This document shows, in pieces, positions 8,461-42,981 of a stretch of 50,520 nt of DNA. How positions within the stretch are numbered: position 1 is the stretch's first letter; every line of letters starts with the position of its first letter. This DNA is from Anaerolinea sp. (GTDB lineage: Bacteria > Chloroflexota > Anaerolineae > SpSt-313). The DNA lies in the NCBI GenBank assembly GCA_020725765.1, contig DYEI01000541.1, positions 1 through 50,520 on the forward strand, in the 5' to 3' direction. The notes under the pieces were generated by a model that saw only the letters and a program-made list of their open reading frames with translations, ran no database searches and was not told where the DNA came from. Both the position numbers and the translations under genes were made by a program.

Positions 8461-8463
8461 GCC

Positions 8464-17398: not shown

Positions 17399-18304
17399 CT
17401 AGCCCTTCAGTCCGGTGAAGACGATGCCCTGGATGAAGAGCCGCTGGGCGAAAAAGTACACCAGGATGCAGGGTATGGCGATGATAACGGACGTGGCCAT
17501 CAGCAGGTGGATCTGGATCGTCGAGCGTGGACTGCCCTGGAAAAAGGCGAGGCCGAGGGGCAACGTAAACAGCCGCTGGTCGCTCACGTAGACCAGCGGG
17601 CCGAAAAAGTCGTTCCAGGCGCCCATGAAGGTAAAGATGGCCACCGTTGCCAGGGCTGGCTTGGCGAGCGGCAGAATGATGCGAGCGTAGGTGCCCAGGA
17701 AACCGGCGCCGTCGATGCGCGCCGCGTCCTCCAGCTCCAGAGGTATGCCCAGCAGAAACTGGCGCAGCAGAAAAATGTGGAAGGGGCTCCCAAAGAACGC
17801 CGGTACGATCAGGGGATAGTAGCTGTTGTACCAGCCCAGCTTCTGGAAGAGCACAAACTGCGGCACCATGTACACCGCCCACGGCAGGATCATGGGGGAG
17901 ATCAGCACCAGAAAGATCGCTTCCCGGCCAGGAAAGCGCAGCCGGGCGAACCCATAGGCGGCGAGCGAGCAGGAGAGCAGCGCGCCCGCAATGACCAGAC
18001 TGGAGATGATCAGCGAGTTTCGCACGTACAACCCGAGCGGGACGACGCTCGCCACCTCGAGGTAGTTTTCCGGGTGTGGTGGGATCGGAATCCACAGCGG
18101 CGGCCACCGGAATACATCCGCCGGCGCCTTCAGCGACGTCGACACCTGCCAGTAGAACGGGAAAAAGACGACTACAGCCCCCAGCACGATCAGGGTGTAT
18201 ACGACCGTGTGAACCATCCGGGCACGGGTCCTACGACTCCGCAACCAGAGTCGCTCTTTGGCGAGCACGCCGCCCGACCGCAACAATCTGCCAGACACGG
18301 TCAC
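17399..18304 (-). CDS. Carbohydrate ABC transporter permease (MalG-like)
   Basis: LELEDAARIDGAGFLGTYARIILPLAKPALATVAIFTFMGAWNDFFGPLVY (EAA loop). Confidence 0.9.
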   Translation of the reverse strand: MTVSGRLLRSGGVLAKERLWLRSRRTRARMVHTVVYTLIVLGAVVVFFPFYWQVSTSLKAPADVFRWPPLWIPIPPHPENYLEVASVVPLGLYVRNSLIISSLVIAGALLSCSLAAYGFARLRFPGREAIFLVLISPMILPWAVYMVPQFVLFQKLGWYNSYYPLIVPAFFGSPFHIFLLRQFLLGIPLELEDAARIDGAGFLGTYARIILPLAKPALATVAIFTFMGAWNDFFGPLVYVSDQRLFTLPLGLAFFQGSPRSTIQIHLLMATSVIIAIPCILVYFFAQRLFIQGIVFTGLKG

Positions 18305-19224
18305 CGCCCTCCTCGCGCTTCATAGTACACCCAGAGCGGGCTGGAGCGAAAAACGGCCAGCGTCAGCAGGAACACCATCACAAAGAACACCCAGGCCAGG
18401 GCCGAGGCGTAGCCCATCCTGAAGTAGCTGAAGGCGTTGCGATAGAGGTAGAGCATATACGTCAGCGTACTGTTCTCGGGGCCGCCCCGCGTCATGACAA
18501 AGGGCTCTGTAAAGAACTGAAAGACCCCGATCAGGCCCATCACCAGGTTGAAGAAGATGATAGGGCTGAGCATGGGCAGCGTGATGTGGGTGAACCGGCT
18601 TGTCGATCCGGCCCCGTCGATCTCGGCCGCCTCGTAGAGCTCGGTGGGAATGCCCTGCAGCCCCGCGAGGTAGATCACCATGTTCCCGCCCACGCCCCAC
18701 AGGCCGATGAGCACGAGCGAGGGAAGCGCCGTGCGGGTGTTTCCCAGCCAGTGCGGGCCCTTGACCCCCACATACCGCAGCAGCACGTTCAGCAGGCCGA
18801 ACTCGGGGTTGAGTATCCATGTCCACAGCACGGCCACCGCCACCCCCGAGATCACCGCCGGCAGATAGTAGACCGTCCGCCAGAAAGCGATCCCTCTCAC
18901 TTTCTGGTTCATCAGAACCGCCAGCGCCAGCGAGCAGACCAGCCCCAACGGCAGCGCCGCCAGCGCATAGCGGATGGTGACGTTCAGGGACTGCCAGAAC
19001 AGCGGGTCCCGGACGAGCGTGCCATAGTTGGCCAGACCTGTCCAGCGCGGCGGCACGATGAGGCGAAACTCGGTCAGGCTGAAAACCAGAGAAGCCACGA
19101 TTGGGCCAGCCACAAAGACCACAAAGCCCACAACTGCAGGGGCGATGAACATGTACCCCGCCAGGGCCTCCCTCTTTCGCAGTGAGACCCGCCGCGTCAC
19201 CGTGCCGCTAGAGCGTATGGCCAT
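18301..19224 (-). CDS. Carbohydrate ABC transporter permease (MalF/UgpA-like)
   Basis: LYEAAEIDGAGSTSRFTHITLPMLSPIIFFNLVMGLIG (EAA loop). Confidence 0.9.
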   Translation of the reverse strand: MAIRSSGTVTRRVSLRKREALAGYMFIAPAVVGFVVFVAGPIVASLVFSLTEFRLIVPPRWTGLANYGTLVRDPLFWQSLNVTIRYALAALPLGLVCSLALAVLMNQKVRGIAFWRTVYYLPAVISGVAVAVLWTWILNPEFGLLNVLLRYVGVKGPHWLGNTRTALPSLVLIGLWGVGGNMVIYLAGLQGIPTELYEAAEIDGAGSTSRFTHITLPMLSPIIFFNLVMGLIGVFQFFTEPFVMTRGGPENSTLTYMLYLYRNAFSYFRMGYASALAWVFFVMVFLLTLAVFRSSPLWVYYEARGGR

Positions 19225-19283
19225 GCAAGCCTTCCTCTACATCCGTGGCGGTCGTTCCGCTCGCTTCGGAAAGGCGCAGGGAT

Positions 19284-19321
19284 CCTCAGCCTGGGGGCAG
19301 AGGTGCTCCCCCAGGCTGAGG
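19284..19321 (-). terminator. Intercistronic hairpin between SBP and permease genes
   Basis: CCTCAGCCTGGGGG / CCCCCAGGCTGAGG, 14 bp perfect. Confidence 0.6.
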
Positions 19322-19355
19322 CATGGTGCCGGGCAAGATGCCGCCGGCGGCTTCC

Positions 19356-20759
19356 CTACTGCTCCGCAATCTTGGCGTTGATCCTGGGCTCGATCGTCGT
19401 GACCAGCTCCTGAGCGGTGATGGTCCCGTTCATGAACTTTTCCCACTCTGGGTTGATGATCGTGTCCCAGATCTCGTTCCAGTTCGGGGTCCAGAGCGAG
19501 CCGTTGCGGCCGCCCTCCAGGCACTTGACGCACGCATCGCCGCCTGGGACATCTTTCCACGCCGAGGAGTATAGCTCATCGAACTCGCGGACGATAGGCG
19601 CGCCGCAGTTCTGGCCGGAGGATGCCATCATCTCATTGGCCGTGCGGTCCACCGCCAGCCAGCGGGCAAACTCCCACGCTAGGTCCTTGTTCTTGCTGCC
19701 CTGGAACATGACCAACTGCGCCGCGTACCACAGGGTCTGGAACCGTCCCTTTGGCCCCTTGGGGATCACGGTCATGCCGATCGGGAAGCTGGCCCCCTTG
19801 TAGGCCGAAAGCATCCAGCAGCCGTCGATGACCATGGCCACCTTGCCCGAGAGGAACGGACCGCCCGCCTGGCTGAGCACGCTCTGCACCGCTGGAGAGG
19901 GCGCCACCTTGTCCTTGTAGATCAGGTCCTGCATCCACTGAAGGGCGTCGATGACCTCGGGGGTGTTGAGCGTCAGCTTCTCCGGGTTAAAGTTGGTGTC
20001 GTAGAGTTGCCCGCCGCGACCCCACACGAGCGGATCCCAACCCCCGTTCCAGCCAACCAGGAACCCCAGGTCGCATCCCCACTGGACCGTCTCGTCGCCC
20101 TCCGTGATGGTCAGCTCTTGCGCTGCCGCCCTAAAGTCGTCCCACGTCCAGTTCTCATTGGGGTACTCGACGCTCGCCTTGTCAAAGAGGTCTTTGTTGT
20201 AGTAGAGCTGCATACCGCACAGAGGTCCATACTGCGCCACATAGATGTGGGATCCATCAAAGCGCACCAGGTCATAGGCCTCGGTGCGGCTCTTGGCCGG
20301 ATCGCTCAGGACCGGGTCGGCGTTAAAGAACTCGTCCAGGGGCACGACCAACCCCTGCTGCACATAGTTCATGATGTCGCCCGGCATCGCCGCAAGGTCG
20401 GGTGGTGTGCCGCTCGACATGAGCAGGGTCAGCTTGGTGTTGAACTGGTCAAAGGGCACCAGAGTCACGTTCACTTTAGTGCCGGGATGGGTTTTCTCGA
20501 ACTCTGCCGCCTGGTCCTGGAGAACCTTGTCCATCTCCGGTGTGATGTTCCAGACGAGGACGGTGATCTCACCAGACAGCTTTTTCTCCGTCACCGGCGC
20601 CGTTGTGGGCGCAGCGACAGTGGCCTGTGTCCCCCCTGTTGCCGCAGGCCCGGCCGTTGGTGCAGTCTGCGGCGCGCCGCAGCCGACCAAGAGGCCCAGC
20701 ACCAGACCAAGTGCCACAAACCTGTACAGCCAGAGTCTGCCGGAGCGCAGCCTTGCCAT
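19356..20759 (-). CDS. Sugar ABC transporter substrate-binding lipoprotein
   Basis: Lipobox LVGCGAP; EKTHPGTKVNVTLVPFDQFNTKLTLLMSSGTPPDLAAMPGD. Confidence 0.88.
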   Translation of the reverse strand: MARLRSGRLWLYRFVALGLVLGLLVGCGAPQTAPTAGPAATGGTQATVAAPTTAPVTEKKLSGEITVLVWNITPEMDKVLQDQAAEFEKTHPGTKVNVTLVPFDQFNTKLTLLMSSGTPPDLAAMPGDIMNYVQQGLVVPLDEFFNADPVLSDPAKSRTEAYDLVRFDGSHIYVAQYGPLCGMQLYYNKDLFDKASVEYPNENWTWDDFRAAAQELTITEGDETVQWGCDLGFLVGWNGGWDPLVWGRGGQLYDTNFNPEKLTLNTPEVIDALQWMQDLIYKDKVAPSPAVQSVLSQAGGPFLSGKVAMVIDGCWMLSAYKGASFPIGMTVIPKGPKGRFQTLWYAAQLVMFQGSKNKDLAWEFARWLAVDRTANEMMASSGQNCGAPIVREFDELYSSAWKDVPGGDACVKCLEGGRNGSLWTPNWNEIWDTIINPEWEKFMNGTITAQELVTTIEPRINAKIAEQ

Positions 20760-20874
20760 GGTAGTACCCCTCCTGATGCAGTGCAGGTGCCTGCCGGCAC
20801 CTATCGGATAGCGTGGTGCGTACAACTGGACTCGAGACTGGGACGGGACCTCACCTCCTTCCCGGTACAGCGCC

Positions 20875-21960
20875 TCACGCCTTTCCGACCAGCCTCTTCA
20901 GCGCCTCCGCGTAGTAGCAATAGTGCTCCCAAGACACATCGTCAGGCACGCAGTGGTCCAGATCGGGGATGTACCGCCCACACTCCACCGCCGGCCGGAT
21001 TCGCTCCAGCTCCCGGTCGATCGCCTCCGGGCCCTCCGCCAGGGCCCGCTTGTCGATGCCCCCCATCATCGCCAGGCCTGGAAAGGACGCCTGAAAGTCG
21101 TTCACGTCCGCCCCCGCCGCAACCTCCATCGGGAAGATATAGTTCACCCCAGCCTCCATCATGGGAGGGACGATCAGACGCGGGTTACCGTCAGTGTCAA
21201 CCGAGAGCAGCGGGATGCCATGCTCGTCCGCAAAAGCCTTGATCCTCCGGTAGTTTGGCCCCATGAACTCCCGCCAGTGCTGAGGGGAGATTAGCGGTCC
21301 CTGCCGCCCGCACATGTCCTCCCAGATGTGGATCATATCCACACGCACCTCATGGACGACCTGCTCAAAAACTGTGAGAAACAGCGATGTCAGGTGATCC
21401 ATGATGTCGTGCACCAGGTCGGGCATCGTGTAGAAAGCGGCCAGGCACTCCTCGTCGCCCAGCAGCCAGCGCAGGCCGCCATACAGCGACACGCTCGGAT
21501 ACTCTCCGAGCTGGATAGGATAACCCCGCCGCATCCACTCTGCACCGAGCTCCCGCCACGGCCCCCGCAGCCGGTCCGGATGGTCCGGATCGAACCGCTC
21601 CTGCTTCAGCCGCTCCCAGTCCCGCCGGTCCTTCACCGGGAACTCGAGGAACTCGGACATCGACATGGAGTGCTTCAGGTCGCGCCGCTTGATTCCCAGC
21701 CCGTCTATGTGCACGACATAGTCCTCGGTCTCCTCAAGGACGACGGGCTCGAAGGCGGGGCACGGGCCACAGTTGACCGGCAGCACGAGGGGCGGCTGGT
21801 CCGGGTCCATGAAGGTCCGATGATCGGTCACCTCAGCGGGCTTGCCTTCCCTCTCCCAGCGCTGCCATGTCGTCGGCCAGGGGTCCCAGTATAGCCAGTA
21901 TGGCGGGCGGTCCGCCGGCTTGCCCAAGAGACAGGCGAGAAAACGCTCGCGATCGTTCAC
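20875..21960 (-). CDS. Uroporphyrinogen decarboxylase (URO-D)-family protein
   Basis: MNDRERFLACLLGKPADRPPYW start; MIHIWEDMCGRQGPLISPQHWREFMGPNYRRI; VDTDGNPRLIVPPMMEAGVNYIFPMEVAAG. Confidence 0.82.
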   Translation of the reverse strand: MNDRERFLACLLGKPADRPPYWLYWDPWPTTWQRWEREGKPAEVTDHRTFMDPDQPPLVLPVNCGPCPAFEPVVLEETEDYVVHIDGLGIKRRDLKHSMSMSEFLEFPVKDRRDWERLKQERFDPDHPDRLRGPWRELGAEWMRRGYPIQLGEYPSVSLYGGLRWLLGDEECLAAFYTMPDLVHDIMDHLTSLFLTVFEQVVHEVRVDMIHIWEDMCGRQGPLISPQHWREFMGPNYRRIKAFADEHGIPLLSVDTDGNPRLIVPPMMEAGVNYIFPMEVAAGADVNDFQASFPGLAMMGGIDKRALAEGPEAIDRELERIRPAVECGRYIPDLDHCVPDDVSWEHYCYYAEALKRLVGKA

Positions 21961-22172
21961 GGCCGTCTCCTCTACGATGGTTACCGCAACCAGTATATCG
22001 CCTCAGGACCTCTCCCGGCCAGAGGTTTCGTGCCACAAGAGTGCCAGCAATTTCCGTCTCTCCGTCCGTAGAGGGGGAAGGGTTCAGAAGGGAGAAGCTT
22101 CCGTCCCCTTGCGCAACCGTAAGGATCTTCCATCGCGAAATGCTTACCCCTAACCCCGCCCTGCTCCGCAAC

Positions 22173-22201
22173 TTGACATCGGCCGTCTTTCCTCATACCC
22201 T
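22173..22201 (+). promoter_or_regulatory. Sigma70-like promoter for the HTH-REC regulator
   Basis: TTGACA (22173-22178), 17-nt spacer, TACCCT (22196-22201). Confidence 0.5.
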
Positions 22202-22235
22202 CACCTTACTGTAGAGGCCGCCGGCACTGTAGGTC

Positions 22236-23537
22236 ATGATGAACACTCCCCGCGAACCCGAAAGCTGGTCGATCTCATCGGGCAATGACCGCGCCCTGAC
22301 CCGACTGGTGCGACGCGCCCTGTCGCACCTCTACGACTATGCATACCTGCAGAGCCACCCCCTCGCCCTCTTGCTCGACGCCGACCACAGCCTCGACCAG
22401 GTCACACGCGCCCAGAAGCTCCGGCGCCTGCTCATCGAGTGCCTTGAGGCCCTGCGGCCCAACGGGGCGCGGGGACCGTCGCCTTCCGACGCCATGCGCG
22501 CTCACGCTATCCTGACCTACCGCTACCTGGACGGCCTCACCATCGGCCAGATTGCAGGCCGCCTGGCACTGAGTCGCCGGCAGATCTACCGGGAGCATGA
22601 GAAGGGAATCGAGGCGGTCGCCAGTGTCCTCGCAGACAGGCTGAGGGGTGAGATGCGAGGCAGCCCTCACAGCGTGCCTTCGGCCGACGATGCCTGTGCT
22701 GACCGCCTGGAGGCCGTGAGAGCTGAGGTAGCGCGCCTGCGGCAGGCAATCCGCACCGAGTCCGTCTCGCCGCTCGAAGTGCTGGAGGGAGTGATCGGCT
22801 TGCTCGCCCCCTTGCAGGAGCAGGCGCCTGTGCGCGTCCAGATTACACCCGATCCTCCCTGGCCCCAAATCATCGCCGATCGAGTCATGCTCCGCCAGGT
22901 GCTCCTGAACATTCTCAGTCACGCCCTGAGCGGAGGCGTCTCCGGCCACCTCCAGGTCGCCCTCTCGCAGAATCACGATGAGGTGACCATCAGCATCCGC
23001 GGTACCCGGGGCCAGTCGCCGGCCGACGCCCCGACTTTCCAGCCAGCAGCCCAGGACGTCGGCCTCGCCGTGTCGCAGGCCCTCACTGAGGCCCAGGGAG
23101 GGCGCCTGCAGGCGATAGAGAGCGCTGAGAGGTGGGAGGCAGTTCTCACCTTCCCCGCTCCCGGGCGCAAGACGATCCTTGTCATCGACGACAACGCCGA
23201 TATCGTGACGCTTCTCGAGCGCTATGTGGCAGGGCACGCGGTCTCTGTCGTGGGCGCAACGCAGCCCTCGAGCGCCCTCACCCTCGCCATCGAGCTGCAG
23301 CCACAGCTCATCACCCTCGACGTGATGATGCCCGGCATCGATGGCTGGGAGCTTCTCCAACAGCTCAAGGGGACTCCGGCCACACGGGACATCCCCGTGG
23401 TCATCTGCTCAGTCCTCAACGAGCCGCGCCTTGCCTTCGCGATGGGCGCCAGCGACTATATCACCAAACCGGTCCGCCAGGACGATCTGTTGGCCGTCTT
23501 GCGGCGCTGGCTGGGGCCGCTGCGGAGCGTCGCGTGA
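22236..23537 (+). CDS. HTH (sigma region 4-like) - degenerate HATPase - receiver regulator
   Basis: LDGLTIGQIAGRLALSRRQIYREHEKG (HTH); MLRQVLLNILSHALSGG (N-box-like); TILVIDDNADIV...LDVMMPGIDGWE...TKPVRQDDLL (REC). Confidence 0.75.
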   Translation: MMNTPREPESWSISSGNDRALTRLVRRALSHLYDYAYLQSHPLALLLDADHSLDQVTRAQKLRRLLIECLEALRPNGARGPSPSDAMRAHAILTYRYLDGLTIGQIAGRLALSRRQIYREHEKGIEAVASVLADRLRGEMRGSPHSVPSADDACADRLEAVRAEVARLRQAIRTESVSPLEVLEGVIGLLAPLQEQAPVRVQITPDPPWPQIIADRVMLRQVLLNILSHALSGGVSGHLQVALSQNHDEVTISIRGTRGQSPADAPTFQPAAQDVGLAVSQALTEAQGGRLQAIESAERWEAVLTFPAPGRKTILVIDDNADIVTLLERYVAGHAVSVVGATQPSSALTLAIELQPQLITLDVMMPGIDGWELLQQLKGTPATRDIPVVICSVLNEPRLAFAMGASDYITKPVRQDDLLAVLRRWLGPLRSVA

Positions 23538-25674
23538 TCACGGGAAGGGTGCTCTGCAGCACCTGCAGCACTTCGGTAAACGAGAACCCATCTCCCCGCT
23601 CGAGCCGCACAGGTCCGACCAGCGGCACCGACGATTCCTCTGTCGGCCGCACCGAGACGACGATAACGTGCGTATCGGCCAGCGAAGGGTCTCGCCGGAC
23701 CTCCTCCAGAAACTCGTACCCGCTTAGCTCGGGCATGTAGAGGTCCAGAAGCACCAGATCGGGTCGTTGCGCCCGGGCCGTCTCCAGCCCTGCGCGGCCC
23801 CCGAAGGCCTCCGACACCTGCGCAGCCGGGCAGCAACCAATCAGGAGCCGCGCCAGCAGCCGAACGACGTCAGGATCATCATCCACAATGAGGGCGCTCT
23901 GTGGAGGCCGCGGCAGCCGAGCCAACACCTCGGCGAGGTGCTCCCGTGTCACCGGCTTGGCGAGGTAGTCGTCCGCGCCCAGGAGCACGGCAAAGCGTCG
24001 CATGCTCGGCAGAGGACAACTCACGAGCGGTGTACCCTCAGGAAGGCCCATCTCGGCCACGGCGGGCATGCCGCCAGGCCAACTCGCATCCACCACCACC
24101 GCAACCGGAAAGACCTCCCCAACCCTCTCCCGGGCCTCCTCCGGCGTCGTCGCCAGCACAAACTCGCAGCCATCGACATACCGCCGCAACAGCGACAGCG
24201 TGCGTGCGTCGTCGTGTAGCAGAAGGACCGCGGGCAACTCGCTCCGCCTGTGCGGCAGAGCACTTCTGCTGCGACGGTGAGCGCTGACTGATCCCCCCTC
24301 TGCAAGCGGCAGGCTGAAGCCAACCGTCGTGCCGCGTCCGGGCTTGCTGTCGATCCACATGCGCCCGCCGTGAAGCTCGACGAACCGTTTGCTCACCGCC
24401 AGGCCCAGCCCAGACCCCTGCCGCACGTGGTCCTCGTCCAGCTGGCTGAAGGCCTCGAACGCCCGTGCCAGGCGATCTGGCGGTATCCCCTGCCCCGAGT
24501 CCTCCACAGTGACGAGCACCTCGCGCTGCTCTGCGTGGATTCTCAGCGCAATCCAGCCCCGCTCGGTGAAGCGTGTCGCGTTCGTCAAGAGGTTCAGCAG
24601 CACCTGGCGGATGCGCGTGCGGTCCAGCCGCACCGGCGGCAATCCTTCCGGGACGGACATCTCGAGCCGCAGCCCTCGCGCCTCGGCCAAGCCCCGCACC
24701 ATCTCGGCTGCCTCCCTTGCCACCTCGCCTATGTCGGTTTCCTCTTTCAGGAGGGGCATGGCACCCGCCTCGAGCCTCGACAGGTCGAGCACGTCATTGA
24801 TCAGGTCTGCGAGATGCCGGGCACTGCGGTAGATTGCCATGACGTCGCCCCGGTAGGGATTGGGGAGGATGGCGCCCCCATAGCTCTCCGGCGCGGTCGC
24901 GATCAGCTCGCTGAACCCCACGATCAGGTTGAGCGGCGTCCGCAGCTCGTGGGACACGTTGGCCACGAACTCGGCCTTGAACTGATACGCCCTTTCCGCC
25001 GCCTCCCGCGCATAGATCAGCGCTTCATTGGCGCGCTCAAGCCGGACGTAGGCCTCGTCAAGGCTCTTGAGAACACGCCGCACCTCGGCGCGGTGCTCAC
25101 GCGCAAGGGCGGCGCTCTTCTGGGCCTCGCGGGTCATGCTGAGGGCCCATGCGAGGGCCGTGAGCAGCCGTCGCGAGCTGAGCCACAGCGCCAGCGCCGC
25201 CAGAAAGATCGTCGTGACCGGAAGCGGCAGTTGCACCAGTGGAAGGCCATATACCCCGCGCCCAATGGCCACCACCAGCGCCGCCGCAACCGACGCCAGC
25301 CCCCAGACCGCACCAGGAGAGGCCAGTGTCGCCGCTACGGGCAAGATAACCACATAGAGGTACAGCGCCCCAACGCCCTGAAACGAAAGCGCGATCGTCG
25401 TTGTGGCCGCCATGGCACCCAGCAGATAGATGGCGATCGCCGGCCGCAGCCACCACCGGTGCAGCCGGTAGCCAAGCCACAGGACCGCCACCATCAGAGC
25501 CATTACCCCGTAGGCATGCAGCGCATAGTGCTCCGCGCAGTACAGGACTGCCACCGCCCACGCCCAGACCACCGCCGCCGTGACCGGCAGCAGCAGCCGG
25601 AACGAGTCCCGGGTCAGCTCTTCCAGCACCCCTGAGGTATCGTTATGCCCAATCGAAAGCGCATCGGACGCCAT
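23461..25674 (-). CDS. Membrane hybrid histidine kinase with two receiver domains
   Basis: N-terminal TM segments; EFVANVSHELRTPLNLIVGFSELI; GSGLGLAVSKRFVELHGG; two C-terminal REC-like domains. Confidence 0.87.
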   Translation of the reverse strand: MASDALSIGHNDTSGVLEELTRDSFRLLLPVTAAVVWAWAVAVLYCAEHYALHAYGVMALMVAVLWLGYRLHRWWLRPAIAIYLLGAMAATTTIALSFQGVGALYLYVVILPVAATLASPGAVWGLASVAAALVVAIGRGVYGLPLVQLPLPVTTIFLAALALWLSSRRLLTALAWALSMTREAQKSAALAREHRAEVRRVLKSLDEAYVRLERANEALIYAREAAERAYQFKAEFVANVSHELRTPLNLIVGFSELIATAPESYGGAILPNPYRGDVMAIYRSARHLADLINDVLDLSRLEAGAMPLLKEETDIGEVAREAAEMVRGLAEARGLRLEMSVPEGLPPVRLDRTRIRQVLLNLLTNATRFTERGWIALRIHAEQREVLVTVEDSGQGIPPDRLARAFEAFSQLDEDHVRQGSGLGLAVSKRFVELHGGRMWIDSKPGRGTTVGFSLPLAEGGSVSAHRRSRSALPHRRSELPAVLLLHDDARTLSLLRRYVDGCEFVLATTPEEARERVGEVFPVAVVVDASWPGGMPAVAEMGLPEGTPLVSCPLPSMRRFAVLLGADDYLAKPVTREHLAEVLARLPRPPQSALIVDDDPDVVRLLARLLIGCCPAAQVSEAFGGRAGLETARAQRPDLVLLDLYMPELSGYEFLEEVRRDPSLADTHVIVVSVRPTEESSVPLVGPVRLERGDGFSFTEVLQVLQSTLPVITRRSAAAPASAARRPTDRPGGPVW

Positions 25675-29203: not shown

Positions 29204-30652
29204 ATGGCCGTGAGATTCAGCGCTCCCGCCGACTGGCTTCATCCCCTCAGCCCGGAGGAGATCGCACGTATTCACCGCTCGGCCTTGCAGGTGCTGCAGG
29301 AGATCGGGCTCGAGGTCGACAATCCCGTCGCACTCGACATGCTCGCCCGAGCGGGCGTCCGCATCGAGGGGCATAGGGCCTACTTCGAGCCGTCCCTCGT
29401 CGAAGAGCAGTTGGCCTCGCTCCGTCGCCTGCAGAAGCCGGCGCCGGGCGGTCCAGCTGGCAAAGCGCTCTCCATTGGCATCGGGGACATGTGCCAGCAC
29501 TATCACTCTCCCGCGACCGATGCCATCGAACCAATGACTACGGCCAACCTCGTCGAGGCGACGCGCAGCGTCGAGACCCTCTGCGCTCTCGGGCTGCACG
29601 GGAACGTCCCCGGCATCCCCGCCGATGTGCCGCCGCAGCTGCAGGCCCTCGTGACCTACAGGGTTGGTGCCGAGTTCCTGAGCGCCGGAGGCGGGGTGCA
29701 CACCCTGCACCCCCCCGAGGCCCTCCCCTACCTCTTTGCCATGGCCGAGGCGCTGGGGCGCCCCATTCGGAGCATGGGCATCTTCCCCGTCAGCCCATTG
29801 CGCCTCGCTGGCTTTGAGTTCGACACCCTGGTCGCCCACATCGGCCGCTGGGAGCGCCTTTCCGTCACCACCCTGCCGGCGGTCGGTGCGAGCGCTCCCA
29901 TCCACCCGCGTGCAGCGTGGGTGCTTTCCACAGCCGAGGCCCTTGGTGCTGCCGTCGCCCTGCACCTGATCTCCGGCGGCAGGCCGGTTGGGATGAACAT
30001 CTGCATGTACCCCTTCGACCTGCGTACCCTGACCATCGTTGGCGGCGCACCCGAGCTGGCGTGGATGCGCTGGATCGGTGCCCAGCTCAGCCGCCACTAT
30101 GATGCCGGGGCTGGCTATGCCACGATCCTCGGGACGCAGGCCAAACGGCCCGGGCTGCAGGCCGGGATGGAGAAGGCGCTCTCCGGCACCTTCGCCGTCC
30201 TCACCAGCTGCACACACTTGGACTACGCCGGCGTCCTCAGCTACGACGACATCTTTAGCCCCGAGCAGGCCGCCGCCGACATCGAGTTGCGCGACGCTCT
30301 CCAGCATCTCAGCCGGGGTCTGCCCCCCGACGATCCCGACCGATGGGTGGAGGAGATCAGGGAGGGGCTCGCGCGCGGCTACGTCCAGGCCGATGCAACC
30401 CTCGATCATTACCGAGAGGTCTACTGGCTGCCGCGTCTGTTTGACCGCGCCAGTTGGCAAGTCTTTCAACTGGAGGGGGGCCGGACTGCACGCCAGCGGG
30501 CCCGCGACGAGGTCCTGTCGCGCCTCGCCGGCTATGCCTTTTCGCCTCCGGAGGGGATCGAGCAGGTCCGCCGCATCTTCAGCCAGGCCTGGCGCGCCCT
30601 CGGAGGCGACCCCGACGCCGGCTACCTCCCGCTGCTGGAGAACCATGGCTGA
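29204..30652 (+). CDS. Trimethylamine methyltransferase (MttB)-superfamily protein, non-pyrrolysine
   Basis: PLSPEEIARIHRSALQVLQEIGLEVDNPVALDMLARAGVRIEGHRAYFEPSLVEE; uninterrupted frame, no internal UAG. Confidence 0.8.
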   Translation: MAVRFSAPADWLHPLSPEEIARIHRSALQVLQEIGLEVDNPVALDMLARAGVRIEGHRAYFEPSLVEEQLASLRRLQKPAPGGPAGKALSIGIGDMCQHYHSPATDAIEPMTTANLVEATRSVETLCALGLHGNVPGIPADVPPQLQALVTYRVGAEFLSAGGGVHTLHPPEALPYLFAMAEALGRPIRSMGIFPVSPLRLAGFEFDTLVAHIGRWERLSVTTLPAVGASAPIHPRAAWVLSTAEALGAAVALHLISGGRPVGMNICMYPFDLRTLTIVGGAPELAWMRWIGAQLSRHYDAGAGYATILGTQAKRPGLQAGMEKALSGTFAVLTSCTHLDYAGVLSYDDIFSPEQAAADIELRDALQHLSRGLPPDDPDRWVEEIREGLARGYVQADATLDHYREVYWLPRLFDRASWQVFQLEGGRTARQRARDEVLSRLAGYAFSPPEGIEQVRRIFSQAWRALGGDPDAGYLPLLENHG

Positions 30653-34515: not shown

Positions 34516-35625
34516 TCACTTCGCAGCTGACTGCGAGGCCGCCTCTAGCACAGCCCTCAGATGGCTGAGAGGGGTGCCAGGAGCGACATTGTTGCCATCC
34601 TGGAGGATGTAGCCACCACAAGGCGCAAAGACATCCATGTAGCGCCTGGTCTCGCGCTTGATGGCATCAGTGGGCCCCTCCAGTAAGAGAACAGGGTTCA
34701 GGCCGCCTGACATTACCGCCCGTCCCCCCAGGTACCGAACAAGCAGAGTAGGGTCAGTTGAGAATCCAAAGCCAACCAGATGGGTGACCGCCAGACGGTT
34801 GGCGATTAGCGGCAAGAGATGATCGATTCTGCCACACATGTGCAGGCCACGGACACCCGCAAACGCTTCGTAGCAGCGACTGTAGTAGGGCACAACGAAC
34901 TCCTCGAACAGCGCCGGTGACAGCATCTCGCCCGCATCACACCCCATGTAGAGACCGGCGATTCCATCGCCGCGCAGCGCACGCACGTGGCGCTGGAGGT
35001 TTATGAACGCCTTGGTGAGAGTATCCATCAATCTGTGCACGCGCTGAGGGTGCTCCAGCATCCACACAAAGAGTCTCTCCCCGGCCAGGGCGTAGGCATC
35101 CGGGATCGGGCCACCTGGCACCCCGATGGTCACGCGGATCTCGAGAGGCCGTCCATTCAACGTGACCTCGTACTCCGCCGCCAGGTCCTTCATTTCGCGA
35201 TACCAGCTGAGCATGCGGCCATAGTGGCCTGCCTCGACCTCCGGTACGGCGAGGGCGTCTATGTCCTCTGGCTCACAAAGGATCGGCTCGGCACAGGCGC
35301 TGCCGTCACTGTACCAACGCACGCCCACATCGTAGTAGCCGCCACGCAGAGTCGAGAGGTCGGGCGCAACAGTAATGGCGTCCGTCTCGACCACCCTCTC
35401 ATCCACTGGGTGCTCTAGGAGCCATTTGTGGTTGAGCAGCTGCTGCTCCAGTTGAGTGCGCGGGTTCCGATAGTAGTCGCCTATCGGCTGACCGCGGGCA
35501 TGGAACAGGAACCGAGACGTCAGCGAGAAGACTACCGGGGGCCGGTCGACTGCCGCCAGGCGCTGGCAGGCCTGCAGGCGCGCGCGGCGGGCCTCATTGC
35601 CGTCCAGCCACTCCGGCGGGCACAT
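34516..35625 (-). CDS. URO-D-family protein (MtaA/CmuA-like)
   Basis: LHMCGRIDHLLPLIANRLAVTHLVGFGF; CGGYILQDGNNVAPGTPLSHL; start placed at internal ATG 35625. Confidence 0.78.
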   Translation of the reverse strand: MCPPEWLDGNEARRARLQACQRLAAVDRPPVVFSLTSRFLFHARGQPIGDYYRNPRTQLEQQLLNHKWLLEHPVDERVVETDAITVAPDLSTLRGGYYDVGVRWYSDGSACAEPILCEPEDIDALAVPEVEAGHYGRMLSWYREMKDLAAEYEVTLNGRPLEIRVTIGVPGGPIPDAYALAGERLFVWMLEHPQRVHRLMDTLTKAFINLQRHVRALRGDGIAGLYMGCDAGEMLSPALFEEFVVPYYSRCYEAFAGVRGLHMCGRIDHLLPLIANRLAVTHLVGFGFSTDPTLLVRYLGGRAVMSGGLNPVLLLEGPTDAIKRETRRYMDVFAPCGGYILQDGNNVAPGTPLSHLRAVLEAASQSAAK

Positions 35626-35702
35626 GATCTCGATAGCTCGCGCGGGCACAATCAACTCCTCAATGAGATGGGCGCCAGAGGTAGGCGCATGCACGTGCGC
35701 AC

Positions 35703-36578
35703 CTACCCCTTGACGCCGGTGAAGACAATACCCTGAAGGAAGTATCGCTGAGCAGAGAAGAAAAGGACTATCAACGGCACCATGCACACGAACGAGGCCG
35801 CCATAAGCTGGGGCCAGTGCGCCCCGCCGAACTCGTTCCGGAAGTAGAGCAGCCCAACGGATGCCGTGAGCTTCATTCTCTCATGCAGATAGATCAGCGG
35901 ATCAAAAAAGTCGTTCCAGCGGCCCTGGAAGACGAGCACGGCTACCGTTGCCAGCGCAGGCCCAGACTGAGGCACTATAATGCGCCAATATACCTCGAAC
36001 GATGAGCAACCGTCGATGCGCGCCGCATCGTCCAACTCCGACGGAATAGTCATGTAGAACTGGCGCAACATGAATATGAAGAACGGCCCGCCAAAGAACA
36101 TGGGCACGATGAGCGGCCTGAACGTGTTCAGCCATCCCAGTTCCTTGAACAGGATGAACTGGGGTATCAGCGTAACCTGCGACGGTAGCATGAGCGTGGA
36201 CAGCATGACCAGGAACAGTATGTCCCGGCCCTTCCAACGGAGCCGTGCAAAGGAGAAGGCCACCAGCGAGCTGGAGAGCACACGACCCAGCGTGCCTGTG
36301 GCAGCAATGAGAAAAGAGTTCAAGAGATAGATGTGGAAGGGCTGAATCGTCAGGGCGTGATAATAGTTCTCCCAGCGCAGGGAGGAAGGCACCCACTTTG
36401 GCGGGAACAGATACACCTCCTGAGGAGCCTTGAGTGATGTGCTGATCATCCAGGCCGCAGGAACGAACAAGACCGCCACCATCGCGAGGAGGGCCATGTG
36501 GGTGAGAGCTCTGGCCAACCGCTTCTGAACGGTGTAGCCCACTCGCCATCTCGGGGTCAAGGCGCTGCCTCGACTCAT
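35703..36578 (-). CDS. Carbohydrate ABC transporter permease (MalG-like)
   Basis: SELDDAARIDGCSSFEVYWRIIVPQSGPALATVAVLVFQGRWNDFFDPLIY. Confidence 0.9.
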   Translation of the reverse strand: MSRGSALTPRWRVGYTVQKRLARALTHMALLAMVAVLFVPAAWMISTSLKAPQEVYLFPPKWVPSSLRWENYYHALTIQPFHIYLLNSFLIAATGTLGRVLSSSLVAFSFARLRWKGRDILFLVMLSTLMLPSQVTLIPQFILFKELGWLNTFRPLIVPMFFGGPFFIFMLRQFYMTIPSELDDAARIDGCSSFEVYWRIIVPQSGPALATVAVLVFQGRWNDFFDPLIYLHERMKLTASVGLLYFRNEFGGAHWPQLMAASFVCMVPLIVLFFSAQRYFLQGIVFTGVKG

Positions 36579-36584
36579 CTTCGC

Positions 36585-37523
36585 CTACCTCTTCAGTTCG
36601 CTCGTATAGTAGACCCATGCCGATGAACTACGGAACACGAGCAGGGTCAGGATCAGTACGTACAGGAACAGTACCCATGATAGTGCAGCCGCGTAGCCCA
36701 GCTTGAAGTATTCGAAAGCGTTCCGGTATAGATAGAGCACGAAGAAGAGGGTTGCATTCTCGGGACCCCCGTTGGTAATAATGCGCCCCTCAGTGAAGAC
36801 CTGGAGTGAACCAATCAGGCCCATGACCAGATTGTAGAACAGGATCGGTGTCATCAGTGGCCACGTGATATACCACCACCGCTGAATCGGCCCGGCTCCA
36901 TCAACCTCAGCCGCCTCGTAGTACTCGGTCGGTATACTCTGCATTCCTGCGAGGTAGATGATCATGCTGCCACCGAAGCCCCACAGACTCATCACGATGA
37001 GCGACGGCAGGGCATATCGGGTGTCGCCCAGCCAGTTACAGCCATTCAGACCCAGCTGGCGCAGGAAGGAGTTGATGAACCCATAGTCATGGTCGAACAC
37101 CAGGAGCCAGAGCATGGACACGGCGGCTGCCGGAAGGATCGACGGAAGATAGAACATGGTGCGGTAGACCCGCAGCCCCCGAAGCTTGGTGTTCAGCAGA
37201 GTGGCTACCACCATGCTCAAGAGAAGCACCAGCGGGACCCGCACAAAAGCATAGATGCTGGTCACCTTTAGTGACGAGACGAGCAGCGGATCGCGCAACA
37301 GGCGAGCATAGTTTGCGGAGCCTATCCATTTGGGTGGCGTGATCAGATCGTATTCGGCAAAGCCAAGGAACATGGCGGCTACCATCGGACCAGCAGTAAA
37401 GAAAGCAAAACCCAAGATCCACGGCGATGCAAAAAGCCATCCCTCGATGTTCTCACGCCCGGAGGTCCTCAACGCAGGTCTCCAGCGGGTAACCCGCCAG
37501 GCCAGCCTCCTCACTGTCGACAT
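36585..37523 (-). CDS. Carbohydrate ABC transporter permease (MalF/UgpA-like)
   Basis: YYEAAEVDGAGPIQRWWYITWPLMTPILFYNLVMGLIG. Confidence 0.9.
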   Translation of the reverse strand: MSTVRRLAWRVTRWRPALRTSGRENIEGWLFASPWILGFAFFTAGPMVAAMFLGFAEYDLITPPKWIGSANYARLLRDPLLVSSLKVTSIYAFVRVPLVLLLSMVVATLLNTKLRGLRVYRTMFYLPSILPAAAVSMLWLLVFDHDYGFINSFLRQLGLNGCNWLGDTRYALPSLIVMSLWGFGGSMIIYLAGMQSIPTEYYEAAEVDGAGPIQRWWYITWPLMTPILFYNLVMGLIGSLQVFTEGRIITNGGPENATLFFVLYLYRNAFEYFKLGYAAALSWVLFLYVLILTLLVFRSSSAWVYYTSELKR

Positions 37524-37550
37524 GGGTGTCCCTCACTCAACCTTGCGGCC

Positions 37551-37679
37551 TGTGGGAACTCGTGGCGGCGTGAGGTCGGCCGGTGGCCTGCTCGACGCTG
37601 CATCCGGGTACACAGCATCCGTTCGTCCACCATGCCAGCACCGCCGGCCGTGCCCGCTCCTACCCCACGAGTTCCCACA
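37551..37679 (-). terminator. Long-range intercistronic hairpin between SBP and permease genes
   Basis: TGTGGGAACTCGTGG (37551-37565) / CCACGAGTTCCCACA (37665-37679), 15 bp perfect, structured 99-nt loop. Confidence 0.5.
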
Positions 37680-37694
37680 ACCGCCACTTCGGCA

Positions 37695-39074
37695 CTAGCT
37701 CGCCAGTATCTCGTTGGCCTTCTTGGTCATTGCCAGTGCCACTTCCCTGGCAGTGGCCTTGTCTGCCCACAGTCGGTCAAGTTCCGGATTGAACGCCTCC
37801 TGAAGGAGTTGGTTCCATTTGGGCGTCTTGGCCGGCTGGAATACCGCGTCAGCCATCTGATCCACGAAAATCCGGTTCTCCTCAGGGCTGTTGGTATCCG
37901 CGAGAAAGGTCTGAGTCATGGTGATCGACTTCCGCTGCGGAACCCCCTCGATTCCAAGCGTCAGTATCCCCTCCGTGCCCGCCAGCCAACTTGCCAGGAT
38001 CCAGGCCTCGTCCGGACTCTTGGTCTTGGCATAGACGCTGAAGGCCCACGAACTCGTGGTCGACCGGCGACCGCCGGGCCCCTTGGGCAGGGGAGCCAGT
38101 CTCCAGTTCCGCGGAAGGCCCTGGCGGACGTAGGAACTGGACACCCAGCGACGGTCGATCATGACCCCTACACGCCCCGCAGGGAACAGGTTCCAGGCGC
38201 GCTGAGTGACCATCGTCTTCGCAGGGGCCACCTTGTGCTTGTAGATAGCATCGTGCATCCATTGCAGGGCCGCGATGGCCTCTTCCGAGTCCAGCAGGCA
38301 GCGGGTGGCATCCTCGTTGAGCAGCCTTGCACCCCCGCTGTAAATGTAGATGAACCACTCCTCATGCGGGGCTACCCACCCCCAACGAGTCACGAGGTCA
38401 CCTTCGCGCTTGGTGAGCTTGCCAGCAGCAGCGATGAGGGCGTCCCAGTTCCAGTCGTCGGCCTGTGCCACGTCGGTGGGAAGAGGGTCCAGCCCTACCT
38501 CCTCAAAGGCTTCGGTGTTATAGTACGTCACCAGCGGGCCGCCATAGGCCGGCAACCCGTACAACTCGCCCTGGTAGGTGAAAAACTCGCGCGGGACGTC
38601 GAAAAAGTCCGCCTTGTCAAAGCCGGGGGTAGAGGCGATGAAAGGTTCAAGACTGAGAGCCACGCCTTTGCCCTCGTAGTTGATCCACATGCCTGCTTCC
38701 ATCTGGAAGACGTCGGCCGCCGTTCCAGCCGCCAGCCGCGTCTGCATGGTGGCTCCGTACTCCGCCGATGGTACGTGTTCGAGGTCGGCGTTCACCCCAG
38801 GATGCCCGGCATTGAATATCTCGAGCGCTCTGAGGTAGTTCTTGGCCTGATCCTGGGTGCCTGAAATCGTCAGGGTCACATTGACCGCAGGGCGTGCAGG
38901 CGGAGGTGTCGCCGTAACGACCTTCTCGACCACCTGGGCCGTGCCTTCAAGGACCACCGTCTCTCGGACGACCCTCTCCACCACCCGGGGCGCGCAAGCC
39001 GCGACGAGAGCGCCAAATGAGGGCAACAGGCCGATAGCGATGAAACGCCGCCGCGTGAGCCTCTTGTTGTCCAT
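37695..39074 (-). CDS. Sugar ABC transporter substrate-binding protein
   Basis: LTRRRFIAIG twin-Arg-like start and ACAPRVVERVVRETVV linker; FNAGHPGVNADLEHVPSAEYGATMQTRLAAGTAADVFQME. Confidence 0.88.
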   Translation of the reverse strand: MDNKRLTRRRFIAIGLLPSFGALVAACAPRVVERVVRETVVLEGTAQVVEKVVTATPPPARPAVNVTLTISGTQDQAKNYLRALEIFNAGHPGVNADLEHVPSAEYGATMQTRLAAGTAADVFQMEAGMWINYEGKGVALSLEPFIASTPGFDKADFFDVPREFFTYQGELYGLPAYGGPLVTYYNTEAFEEVGLDPLPTDVAQADDWNWDALIAAAGKLTKREGDLVTRWGWVAPHEEWFIYIYSGGARLLNEDATRCLLDSEEAIAALQWMHDAIYKHKVAPAKTMVTQRAWNLFPAGRVGVMIDRRWVSSSYVRQGLPRNWRLAPLPKGPGGRRSTTSSWAFSVYAKTKSPDEAWILASWLAGTEGILTLGIEGVPQRKSITMTQTFLADTNSPEENRIFVDQMADAVFQPAKTPKWNQLLQEAFNPELDRLWADKATAREVALAMTKKANEILAS

Positions 39075-39190
39075 TGTCTCACTCCTCCTAGTGGTCGCAG
39101 CAGGGAGGTTCCCTGCAGCTGCTGGAGTCGCGCCCGGCTGAGTGCTCGTCAGCACTCTCATCCAAGCTTGACCACTGACCAGCTTAATGT

Positions 39191-39241
39191 TACGATAGGG
39201 CACAGTTGCACGTGCGAGCCGTCCCATCTGGCCCTATCGTA
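39191..39241. promoter_or_regulatory. Inverted repeat, candidate operator between divergent SBP and regulator genes
   Basis: TACGATAGGGC (39191-39201) / GCCCTATCGTA (39231-39241); internal palindrome GCACGTGC. Confidence 0.45.
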
Positions 39242-39281: not shown

Positions 39282-40550
39282 ATGTCTGCCACAGAAAGAG
39301 CCGCTGAGTCGTTCGATGAGTTGCGGCATCAGCTGCGCGAGGCACTTGCACACCTCCATGACCCCGACTACCAGCCCCCCGAGCTGCTCCGCCAGGTGGT
39401 CGGTCATCCTCAAGCCCAAGACAAGGCAGCCTTCCAGGCGGCCATCCTGCAGAAGATAGCGGACCTCGCACCACACGCTGACGCACCCGCCACGAGCCGA
39501 GCTCAGCGTGACTATGAGGTACTGCGACATCGCTTTGTTCTCGGCCTGACTCAGGAAGAGGCGGCAGAACACCTCCACATGAGCGTCCGCACCCTCGGGC
39601 GGGCGCAACGCCAGGCCACCCATGCCCTTGCCAGGATGCTTTGGGAGCAACGCCAGAGGGCAGACGCAGGCACGGCATTCTCCGAGCACGAGGGAAGCTC
39701 CAGTCAGAGCTCCGACGACTGGCGGTCACAGGTGAGAGAGAATCTCGCGGCGCTGCGTGCCAGTGCACCCGAGTTGGTCAGTAACGTCTACGATGTGATC
39801 GCGTCTGCTTTGGAACGGGTGAGCACGGTCGTCTTACAGTCGGAAAGGCCGCGCGCCGCAGGAGTACCGCGCGATCTCGTGGCGAAGGTGCATCCATCTG
39901 TGTTGCGACAGGTGCTGATTATGGCAATGACCCAACTCCTCGCCACAGGTCTCGGCGGGGTGGAGCTGAGCGCCCACGCGGAGGAAGACCGAGTAGTCAT
40001 CCGCATCACAGGGCCAGCCTCAGATTTGCCCGAGGACCCGGAGGTTGCTCTGCTGCGCGAGATTCTGGCCTGCGATGGGGGTGACCTGGAAATCAGGGCT
40101 GAAGGTGGTCGCCTCGAGGCGCGCATCGCTATCCCGGCTGCAGGCAAGGTAACAGTGCTGGTGGTTGACGACAATATCGATGCATTGCACTACTACCGCC
40201 GCTGCGTGGAGCAGACCCGCTTCCATCTCATCCACGCCCGAAGTGGAGACGCCGCACTCGAACAGATGCGCTCGCGCACACCGGATGTCATCGTTCTCGA
40301 CATCGTCCTTCCCGACATGGATGGCTGGGACTTTATGCAGAAGCTTCGGCGGAATCCCGTGACGCGCTCCATCCCCGTGATCATCTGCTCAATCGTCAAA
40401 GAAGAGCGCCTGGCCTCAGCCCTCGGCGCCATCCAGTGTCTACCCAAGCCGGTACGAGATGCGGAATTCCTCCACGCGCTTGAACAGGCTATCGCCCAGG
40501 CCCCAACAGCATCGCCGAGAACTGGAGCGCACAGCACAGCAGCCTTCTGA
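39282..40550 (+). CDS. HTH (sigma region 4-like) - degenerate HATPase - receiver regulator
   Basis: RHRFVLGLTQEEAAEHLHMSVRTLGRAQRQATHALARML (HTH); VTVLVVDDNIDAL...LDIVLPDMDGWDFMQKL...CLPKPVRDAEFL (REC). Confidence 0.78.
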   Translation: MSATERAAESFDELRHQLREALAHLHDPDYQPPELLRQVVGHPQAQDKAAFQAAILQKIADLAPHADAPATSRAQRDYEVLRHRFVLGLTQEEAAEHLHMSVRTLGRAQRQATHALARMLWEQRQRADAGTAFSEHEGSSSQSSDDWRSQVRENLAALRASAPELVSNVYDVIASALERVSTVVLQSERPRAAGVPRDLVAKVHPSVLRQVLIMAMTQLLATGLGGVELSAHAEEDRVVIRITGPASDLPEDPEVALLREILACDGGDLEIRAEGGRLEARIAIPAAGKVTVLVVDDNIDALHYYRRCVEQTRFHLIHARSGDAALEQMRSRTPDVIVLDIVLPDMDGWDFMQKLRRNPVTRSIPVIICSIVKEERLASALGAIQCLPKPVRDAEFLHALEQAIAQAPTASPRTGAHSTAAF

Positions 40551-42666
40551 CTGGCATTCCGTCGCTGGTACTCAGGATGAGAAAGGGACTTGCCAGTGCC
40601 TGCTGTCCTGGATCCTGAGCCGACAGAATGTAGATGGCAAGCTCCTCCGCTGTCCTCTCGCGACGTAACTGCTCCAGCACTTGCCATCCACTCATGTCAG
40701 GCATGGTTATGTCGAGAAAGACCAGATCGGGAAGCAGCCTCGCTGCCTTCTCGAGCGCTTGAGCACCACTGGTCGCCGTAAACACCTCCACCTCAGGGAG
40801 CGCCATCTTGAGCATTCGTCGCAGCAACGTCAGAAACTCGATCTCGTCGTCGACCAGCAGTATGCGCCGGACGCAGCGGCCGGTTGATTGCACAGCCTGA
40901 AGCAGGTCAGCCTCGCCAACCGGCTTGACCAGATGCCCCTGCGCGCCAAGTCCCACAGCGCGGGCCTCGGAGGGGGACACGACGCAGCCACATAGCGCCA
41001 CGTCGGAGATCTGGCCGCGCACCGCCTCCAACTCGCCCCACGCACGATCTACACTTGACGCGTTGAGCAGCAGAGCATGCGCAGGAGTGTCGGCAAGAAG
41101 AAGAGCAGCCTCTTCCAGAGAGGCGACGCTCACCAGTTCGGCAAGGTCTGCGTGGCGCTCCAGTTGACTACCCAGCCCTCCTGTCTCGTCGCAGACTACG
41201 ACACGAGGTTTGGTGAGATGGGGCGTCGCAGCCGCTCTTGCCCCGATAAAGTCGCGCTCTCGCCACTCCCAGTCCTCGCGATTCCAGCGCCACGGCATAC
41301 TCCCGCCCTGGTTTGACGGGCTGAGTGGGAGCTCCACATAGCAGGTCGTCCCCACCCCGACCTGGCTTTCCAGCCAGATCCGCCCGCCATGCAGCTCTAC
41401 GAACTGCTTGGAGATGCTCAGACCAAGGCCAGTGCCACCCGCGCTCTGTGACCCAGAGCCGGTCTGCCAGAATGGCTCGAAAGCAGCAGACAGGTCCTCA
41501 GCGGCGATACCAGGCCCCGTGTCAGTGATGCGCAGGAGCATACTGTCACCGCGCACCTCGGCACCCACTGTGATGCCACCTCGCTCCGTGAAGCGGGCGG
41601 CATTGCTGAGCACATTCAGAACGACCTGGCGGATACGGGTCGGATCGCATACGATCGGCGGCAGGTCAGCGGGCACGTCGACCGTCAAGCCGAGCCCCTT
41701 CCTCTCCAGCAACGGCCCGACGATCTCCAGCGCGCTGTGAACGATGTCCGTCACTCGGACGGACTCACGGCGCAGCGCGATCTGCCCAGCGTCCAATCGT
41801 GTCAGATCCAGCACGTCGTTGACCATGCTGGCGAGATGCTCACAGTTCCGCTGCACGACCTGCAAGTCCTGCCACAAGTCAGGGGGGAACTCCCGGCCAT
41901 ACATGTAGGGACGACGCACCATGAGCCCCACCAGGCCAATGATCATGTTGAGAGGCGTGCGGAACTCGTGGCTGACGCGCGATACGAAGGCAACCTTGGC
42001 CTGCTGCGCCTGCTCGGCAATCAGGCGCAACGCTGCCGTGCGCTCGTTGGCCAGCGCCAACTGACGGTTGGCGTGAGCCAGATCGTCCAGCGCCTGTTGG
42101 AGCTCGGCCTTGCGGTCGCGCGCCTGCTCCAGCAACTCCTGCGCCCGACGAGTATGAGCCCACGCCCAGGCTGCCGTTCGCTGAAGCGAGCGGTGGACCC
42201 CCCACAACACGGCAAAGGAACCCCAGATGGCGACGACCACTACGAGCGGGTGAGTTCTGACCTGCCCGGGTGAGCTGGCAGTATAGAGCCAGAGAAGCAA
42301 TGTCTCGGCGATGCTTACCAGGGCCGCCTCTTCGAGGCTCAGCACAGCGGCAGCTACCAGAGGAGGCAGGGCAAGAAGTGCCAACAGCCCCTCGACAGCC
42401 AGCAGACGGTCCCCAAGGAACATGACGATCTGCAGCGACACAATGGACAGCCACGGACCAACTCGGGGCGCGCTCCTGGCCATCCAGCACACCGCAGCTG
42501 CGCAATAACACAAGGCGGCCAGCAACGCAACCGACAGGCGCTGCGACATATCCGGAATGGCATCGGTCGCGAACACCAGCGCTACACCGCAGGAGGCCAG
42601 AGCGATCACCACCAGAGCCTGCGGCACCTGCGCCTCCACTGCAGACAGATTACTCGAGCGGGCCAT
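40489..42666 (-). CDS. Membrane hybrid histidine kinase with two receiver-like domains
   Basis: AFVSRVSHEFRTPLNMIIGLVGLM; GGTGLGLSISKQFVELHGG; REC-like domains; start placed at ATG 42666. Confidence 0.86.
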   Translation of the reverse strand: MARSSNLSAVEAQVPQALVVIALASCGVALVFATDAIPDMSQRLSVALLAALCYCAAAVCWMARSAPRVGPWLSIVSLQIVMFLGDRLLAVEGLLALLALPPLVAAAVLSLEEAALVSIAETLLLWLYTASSPGQVRTHPLVVVVAIWGSFAVLWGVHRSLQRTAAWAWAHTRRAQELLEQARDRKAELQQALDDLAHANRQLALANERTAALRLIAEQAQQAKVAFVSRVSHEFRTPLNMIIGLVGLMVRRPYMYGREFPPDLWQDLQVVQRNCEHLASMVNDVLDLTRLDAGQIALRRESVRVTDIVHSALEIVGPLLERKGLGLTVDVPADLPPIVCDPTRIRQVVLNVLSNAARFTERGGITVGAEVRGDSMLLRITDTGPGIAAEDLSAAFEPFWQTGSGSQSAGGTGLGLSISKQFVELHGGRIWLESQVGVGTTCYVELPLSPSNQGGSMPWRWNREDWEWRERDFIGARAAATPHLTKPRVVVCDETGGLGSQLERHADLAELVSVASLEEAALLLADTPAHALLLNASSVDRAWGELEAVRGQISDVALCGCVVSPSEARAVGLGAQGHLVKPVGEADLLQAVQSTGRCVRRILLVDDEIEFLTLLRRMLKMALPEVEVFTATSGAQALEKAARLLPDLVFLDITMPDMSGWQVLEQLRRERTAEELAIYILSAQDPGQQALASPFLILSTSDGMPVRRLLCCALQFSAMLLGPGR

Positions 42667-42712
42667 GACAACACACCTCGCAAGGGTGGGTTCTGAGCGG
42701 GACTCAACGGTG

Positions 42713-42740
42713 GTTATAGCACAATGTGCCCCAAGAGCAA
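42713..42740 (-). promoter_or_regulatory. Sigma70-like promoter for hybrid kinase
   Basis: Minus strand TTGCTC - 16 nt - TATAAC. Confidence 0.4.
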
Positions 42741-42981
42741 CTCGGGCCTGGGATGCGGATCGGGTGGAGGCCAGGCGTGCGGGGATGCCTGCGAGCCTTC
42801 GTGTGTTCAAGCTACAGCAGCGCGAAATGGTTGCAGTCTGCACTGACGATCCTGGGATACAGCCGGCCCTTCTGGTTCCGCTCCAGGCGACAGACTCTCC
42901 CCTGCACCACTGCGGTGGAGATCCGCGGGAGACTTCCAGCCCTGACCTTGTGCGAGCCCTGATCGCGGGCGCCGCCGCAGC

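Follow-up and report, generated by a model that had tools for sequence, protein, structure and literature searches.

A convergent kinase-regulator cassette with a degenerate histidine-kinase domain, repeated beside divergent sugar importer operons in Anaerolineae

The window analysed here, a stretch of 50,520 nucleotides from Anaerolinea sp. (GenBank assembly GCA_020725765.1, contig DYEI01000541.1), carries the genes of a response regulator and of a membrane hybrid kinase, which converge and overlap at their 3' ends. The two are very probably a cognate two-component pair, and together one unit of a cassette that is specific to the lineage and duplicated many times, in which the kinase would signal to the receiver of the regulator and the helix-turn-helix (HTH) of the regulator would switch a divergent importer. 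The sequence shows the architecture, the loss of the ATP site in the regulator, the pairing, the convergence, the association with divergent ATP-binding cassette (ABC) operons and the shuffling of the pair among importers; we infer the signal, the phosphotransfer, the DNA target and its binding, and the role of the degenerate kinase domain. In the following list, CA is the catalytic and ATP-binding domain of histidine kinases, DHp their dimerisation and histidine phosphotransfer domain, and REC a receiver domain.

22236..23537, + strand: regulator of 433 aa, HTH - pseudo-CA - receiver (open reading frame, translation, Pfam, AlphaFold2 model)
22293..22655, + strand: N-terminal helical domain of about 120 aa with a sigma-region-4-like HTH (alignments A1/A5, profile matches)
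22683..23159, + strand: pseudo-CA, a GHKL fold with the ATP lid deleted, and the helix that precedes it
23172..23510, + strand: receiver (Pfam), with phospho-acceptor Asp362 (codon 23319-23321) and Lys411
23461..23537: 77 nucleotides shared by the 3' ends of the two convergent reading frames
23461..25674, - strand: hybrid kinase of 737 aa, multi-span membrane region - HisKA - CA - REC1 - REC2
25174..25605, - strand: sensor region in the membrane, from hydropathy segments in residues 24-167 of the kinase
24763..24978, - strand: HisKA/DHp (Pfam PF00512), with the phospho-acceptor His in SHELRTPLN
24301..24624, - strand: intact CA (HATPase) of the kinase (Pfam PF02518, 104 bits)
23914..24225, - strand: REC1 of the kinase
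23530..23892, - strand: REC2 of the kinase

An earlier note on this DNA, made from the letters alone, had described the two convergent reading frames with their 77-nucleotide overlap, and had read the regulator as a sigma-4-like HTH, a HATPase-like middle and a receiver, in a layout that is not standard for response regulators. This description holds, the domains being recovered by Pfam and by profile searches. The receiver (residues 314-422, PF00072, 71.9 bits) has the acidic pair, phospho-Asp, T/S and Lys of two-component response regulators. Across 104 homologues the phospho-Asp is invariant (104/104), and the Lys and the T/S are each kept in 103/104. The layout is neither that of NarL/FixJ nor that of OmpR/PhoB regulators: REC is C-terminal, and the GerE and Trans_reg_C outputs are unmatched in Pfam. 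The model of the full-length regulator has a mean predicted local distance difference test score (pLDDT) of 80.6; the AlphaFold models are based on 11 sequences. A phospho-relay through a His of the regulator (a weak HPTransfase-like match in the second window copy) was rejected, because His reaches at most 25% in any HTH-REC column of the 104 homologues.

The HTH lies at residues 83-126, where the Pfam matches to sigma-70 region 4 and HTH_23 are sub-threshold. The profile of the N-terminal domain matches sigma-region-4 structures in the PDB (best E 2e-4), and the recognition helix, approximately SRRQIYRE, contains an Arg (R119) that is invariant across the 26 paralogues of this genome. The weak similarity to sigma region 4 and the divergent placement of the gene suggest that this HTH binds DNA. 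PhyR also has a sigma-like N-terminal part and a C-terminal receiver. This shared order, and a weak PhyR_sigma-like match in one of the 26 members (E 0.0073), would fit a regulator that does not bind DNA, whose N-terminus mimics a sigma factor and titrates an anti-sigma factor. This is highly improbable, since 11/26 members match sigma region 4 in Pfam instead, the PDB profile matches are to the DNA-binding region 4 of sigma factors and none is PhyR, the invariant Arg is retained in the recognition helix, and the cassette is divergent to target-like operons. PhyR, in the alphaproteobacterial general stress response (PMC5830050), is an anti-sigma antagonist without a pseudo-CA, whereas the cassette adjoins a divergent local operon.

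The same HTH domain is found as the C-terminus of a seven-transmembrane (7TM)-GAF protein of about 700 aa in the same genome (L055:4804-6906, contig C431), and open frames some 650-700 aa long carry partial matches to it in nearly all of 60 relatives searched. The 7TM-GAF-HTH proteins may be a class-wide family of membrane-bound transcription factors.

As judged from alignments and models, the middle domain of the regulator is a genuine homologue of the histidine-kinase CA which is catalytically dead, hence pseudo-CA. HATPase_c is matched at residues 215-299 (PF02518) with 28.4 bits for a cut-off of 26.4. When the profile of the 26 paralogous middle domains is compared with that of the CA of the partner kinases, hhalign gives a probability of 99.65% (E 4.2e-25). 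A PDB search with the same profile retrieves histidine kinases, with ZraS as the best match (E 5e-14) and chains of RetS and DivL among the matches. The isolated domain is modelled by AlphaFold with a pLDDT of 85.8, and its best Foldseek matches are the histidine-kinase catalytic cores of ZraS (9e-11), CusS and HK853. These approaches bear out the GHKL fold proposed in the earlier note, which had also correctly seen an N-box-like stretch and pointed out the lack of a G box and of a phospho-acceptor His domain; there is no HisKA domain and no G1 or G2 box in the regulator.

The same note had called this domain an ATP-binding-like sensor, which the joint alignment with the CA does not support. 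The segment that holds the third G1-box position and the F-box/ATP lid is deleted in 26/26 paralogues. None of them (0/26) has the second N-box Asn, and none (0/26) has the G1 Asp. The fold is kept, and the hallmarks that an active ATPase of the GHKL/HATPase_c type would carry (N-box Asn, G1 Asp, lid and G2 box) are lacking. Over the 104 homologues, in which the receiver Asp is invariant, the N-box and G1 catalytic positions are variable. A domain that still binds a nucleotide or a small ligand, and serves as a cytoplasmic sensor inside the regulator, could account for the retained fold, for the window copy slightly exceeding the Pfam cut-off and for an R-Q pair of the N-box helix that is nearly invariant among homologues. 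It is very unlikely in view of the lost lid, Asn and Asp, and these positions do not behave as a conserved ligand site would.

With lid and catalytic residues lost in all paralogues, the pseudo-CA most likely has a structural role or serves in docking; it would mediate dimerisation or attachment to the kinase, rather than act as an enzyme or an ATP sensor. In alignments, the helix ahead of the pseudo-CA falls on the last part of DHp helix 2, and the closest match of the full-length model is the hybrid kinase ShkA. The regulator therefore resembles a hybrid kinase's C-terminal half, CA-REC, which has lost the DHp and the ATP site and gained an HTH. RetS and DivL are pseudo- or non-canonical kinases whose degenerate CA serves protein-protein signalling. 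They are membrane or cytoplasmic kinases which have a DHp, whereas here the CA remnant lies inside a response regulator predicted to bind DNA. It is conceivable, as a tentative idea, that the dead CA docks on the DHp/CA dimer of its own kinase and tethers each regulator to its partner. In that case the 26 related pairs of a cell would be kept from cross-talk, a wiring of a large set of paralogous sensors that would be new.

The partner kinase has the HisKA His, the intact CA and the receivers of a hybrid histidine kinase, and its His, N-box, G1 and G2 residues are retained in 93/93 homologues. Given these residues and the invariant phospho-acceptor of the regulator, phosphotransfer from kinase to regulator is expected. 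In REC1 the phospho-Asp is replaced by Asn in 58/93 homologues and the Lys is kept in 93/93, so that REC1 is usually a predicted pseudo-receiver; the window copy retains the Asp. REC2 keeps its acidic pocket and phospho-Asp in 93/93 but its Lys end has given way to a conserved Gly-rich "GGL" motif, hence it may act as a phosphate sink or relay. The two receivers complement each other like the halves of a single active site, REC1 keeping the Lys end (Asp pocket mostly lost) and REC2 the Asp (Lys end lost). By hydropathy, the membrane region has short loops only and no large extracytoplasmic domain. A short-loop membrane region suggests sensing at or within the membrane.

In the proposed mechanism, the kinase would sense a condition tied to the substrate of the divergent importer and autophosphorylate on the DHp His. 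The phosphoryl group would then pass to Asp362 of the regulator, possibly via REC2 of the kinase, and the phosphorylated regulator, by its sigma4-like HTH, would switch the divergent operon, which encodes a URO-D protein, a substrate-binding protein (SBP) and two permeases.

The window holds a second copy of the cassette:

39321..40550, + strand: second regulator
40489..42843, - strand: second kinase, convergent, with a 62-nucleotide overlap
35703-39227: divergent CUT1 operon of the second copy

The designation of the first pair as "copy 1" of a module understated the case, for the genome carries 26 copies and the module has spread through the class. The genome (4.58 Mb, 570 contigs) encodes 26 full-length regulators, and 26/26 have a paralogous kinase directly downstream and convergent. 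Elsewhere, 50/54 regulators have such a kinase, the loci outside this genome having been picked among high-scoring matches, so that such percentages do not describe a random sample. The co-occurrence with the kinase on which the earlier proposal hung is therefore confirmed by the neighbourhood survey. Within the genome, the distances between regulators and those between kinases are strongly correlated (Mantel r=0.94, 0/1000 permutations), and the correlation is 0.92 over 93 pairs. The full-length regulator was found in 106/396 genomes of a class-wide sample of Anaerolineae. The pseudo-CA is rare outside the class (2 of the sampled genomes, one of them, L204, with the complete layout), and plasmid records gave no close full-length match. 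This distribution was taken from separate genome searches, since a scan of the genome collection with alignment A7 returned mostly ordinary receivers. Most of the genomes are fragmented assemblies, and neighbouring genes were called with a simple codon-usage caller.

The convergent overlap recurs with the pair. Its length of exactly 77 nucleotides is also found in the orthologue of a genus-mate. In the genome, 21/26 pairs overlap, by 29-83 nucleotides (most commonly 68, in 7 pairs), and 19/21 do so in the same phase, compared to an overlap in 4/19 other convergent pairs of the same loci. Across many families, an overlap is present in 51/62 pairs, with 43/51 in one phase. In 33/51 overlapping pairs, the stop codon of the kinase is placed antisense to the codon pair just behind the KP motif of the receiver; in the window pair it lies four codons earlier than this usual position. 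The overlap would be inherited with the pair, the kinase frame entering the regulator gene up to a TGA mostly antisense to the post-KP codons. In 11 orthologous pairs between genus-mates, changes at fourfold-degenerate sites are about half as frequent in the overlap as elsewhere in the two genes (0.115 vs about 0.25, p=2e-4, and 0.093 vs 0.24, p=3e-5). The last 68 nucleotides of ABC genes, used as a control, show a mild dip alone (0.168 vs 0.226). It is therefore likely that both overlapping frames are translated and under constraint.

The frequency and the phase of the overlap, and exact lengths conserved between genus-mates, might also mean that the overlap is itself regulatory, antisense duplexes of the convergent transcripts balancing the levels of kinase and regulator. 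This is unlikely: descent and dual coding are a simpler explanation, with the kinase stop opposite the same pair of codons in so many copies, the synonymous constraint is expected anyway from two overlapping frames, and non-overlapping pairs exist which retain the layout.

The operon divergent to the regulator, and the region between them, are as follows:

21961..22235: divergent intergenic region, presumed operator
20875..21960, - strand: URO-D family gene (PF01208), first of the divergent operon
17399..20825, - strand: CUT1-type ABC importer
19356-20825, - strand: SBP of this operon (PF01547)
18301-19224 and 17399-18304, - strand: permeases, which recur beside 20 cassette copies

The order URO-D / SBP / permease / permease is that of the divergent sugar ABC/URO-D operon that the earlier note had placed here, and its expectation that homologues would co-occur with sugar ABC genes is also verified. 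Among the copies of this genome whose 5' flank spans 3.8 kb or more (n=21), 20/21 adjoin a divergent CUT1 permease pair; the 21st (L053) faces an importer of another type (SBP / permease / ATPase). In other genomes, 44/49 copies face a divergent CUT1 permease. About 20/46 homologues of the window permease in the genome belong to cassette loci, and the cassette is thus the predicted regulator of nearly half of this genome's CUT1-type importers, and of many more in the class. Within the genome, the correlation between regulator distances and those of the SBP or the permease is about 0. The regulator tracks its kinase (r=0.94) but not its importers, which indicates that the pair moves as one unit; in the manner of a portable cassette, it has been joined many times, back-to-back, to unrelated importers. 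Such repeated divergent joining argues for function rather than for a locus inherited in one piece.

Some copies, a minority, face genes of other kinds, which would be expected if the association with sugar ABC genes were mere genomic hitchhiking and the regulator controlled something else. This has very little probability, since the importer trees do not track the regulator tree and the adjacency must have been set up repeatedly, always divergent. Upstream of the regulator are a TTGACA (22173-22178) and a weak TACCCT (22196-22201), and the regulator-proximal part of the intergenic region is conserved with the genus-mate.

Several observations weigh against control of the divergent operon by a convergent cognate pair. 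In intergenic alignments with the genus-mate, which do contain conserved blocks, inspection by eye, in place of a formal motif search, revealed no operator motif or repeat in common. A few copies have no sugar ABC operon opposite them (e.g., L156, which faces a PhyH gene, and L181), and in L198 and L203 the kinase is on the same strand as the regulator. The membrane region of the kinase shows no co-variation with the SBP or the permeases in this genome, and a direct contact between transporter and kinase is therefore unsupported. The same-strand copies may represent an older or a rearranged state.

The nearest functional analogues are the hybrid two-component systems (HTCS) of Bacteroides and SBP-linked systems of Firmicutes, and the cassette belongs to neither, since layout, HTH type and gene arrangement differ. 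Like the HTCS of polysaccharide utilisation loci (PMC11253607), it consists of expanded paralogues, each beside a carbohydrate-uptake locus, and combines histidine kinase, REC and HTH. Unlike in the HTCS, where sensor kinase and response-regulator output are in one polypeptide, these functions are split between two convergent genes in 26/26 copies, and the cassette has an N-terminal sigma4-like HTH, a pseudo-CA and ABC importers. The Firmicutes systems, such as CuaD-CuaSR, likewise place a sugar ABC importer operon under two-component control, and the extracellular domains of CuaS bind the SBP (PMC10384115). The cassette kinase, in contrast, has short-loop membrane spans only, and the regulator architecture differs. 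A literature search largely confined to papers outside subscription found no published description of the HTH - pseudo-CA - receiver layout with a convergent kinase.

The cassette has the look of a portable module for sensing sugars and switching genes, in a bacterial class that has been little studied. The class is widespread in the environment and has few cultured or genetically studied members, and the sugars sensed and the regulons could be read from gene order. The 26 paralogous pairs in one cell are also a natural test set for the insulation of two-component systems, for which the pseudo-kinase domain inside the regulator is a candidate device.

Both sugar operons of the window hold URO-D proteins, one of them adjoined by an MTTB-family methyltransferase (20875-21960, 34516-35787, 29204-30652), and further cassette operons (L033, L044, L046, L054) also contain relatives of URO-D. 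These recurring neighbours hint at the demethylation of methylated or methoxylated substrates. At another locus (L052:2496-4699), the upstream neighbour of the cassette is an asparaginase-family gene on the same strand, which overlaps the called regulator start by 4 nucleotides. The window also contains an ordinary OmpR/PhoB-type regulator and a HAMP-PAS kinase (7753-10221), which adjoin an L-rhamnose isomerase gene (6199-7488).
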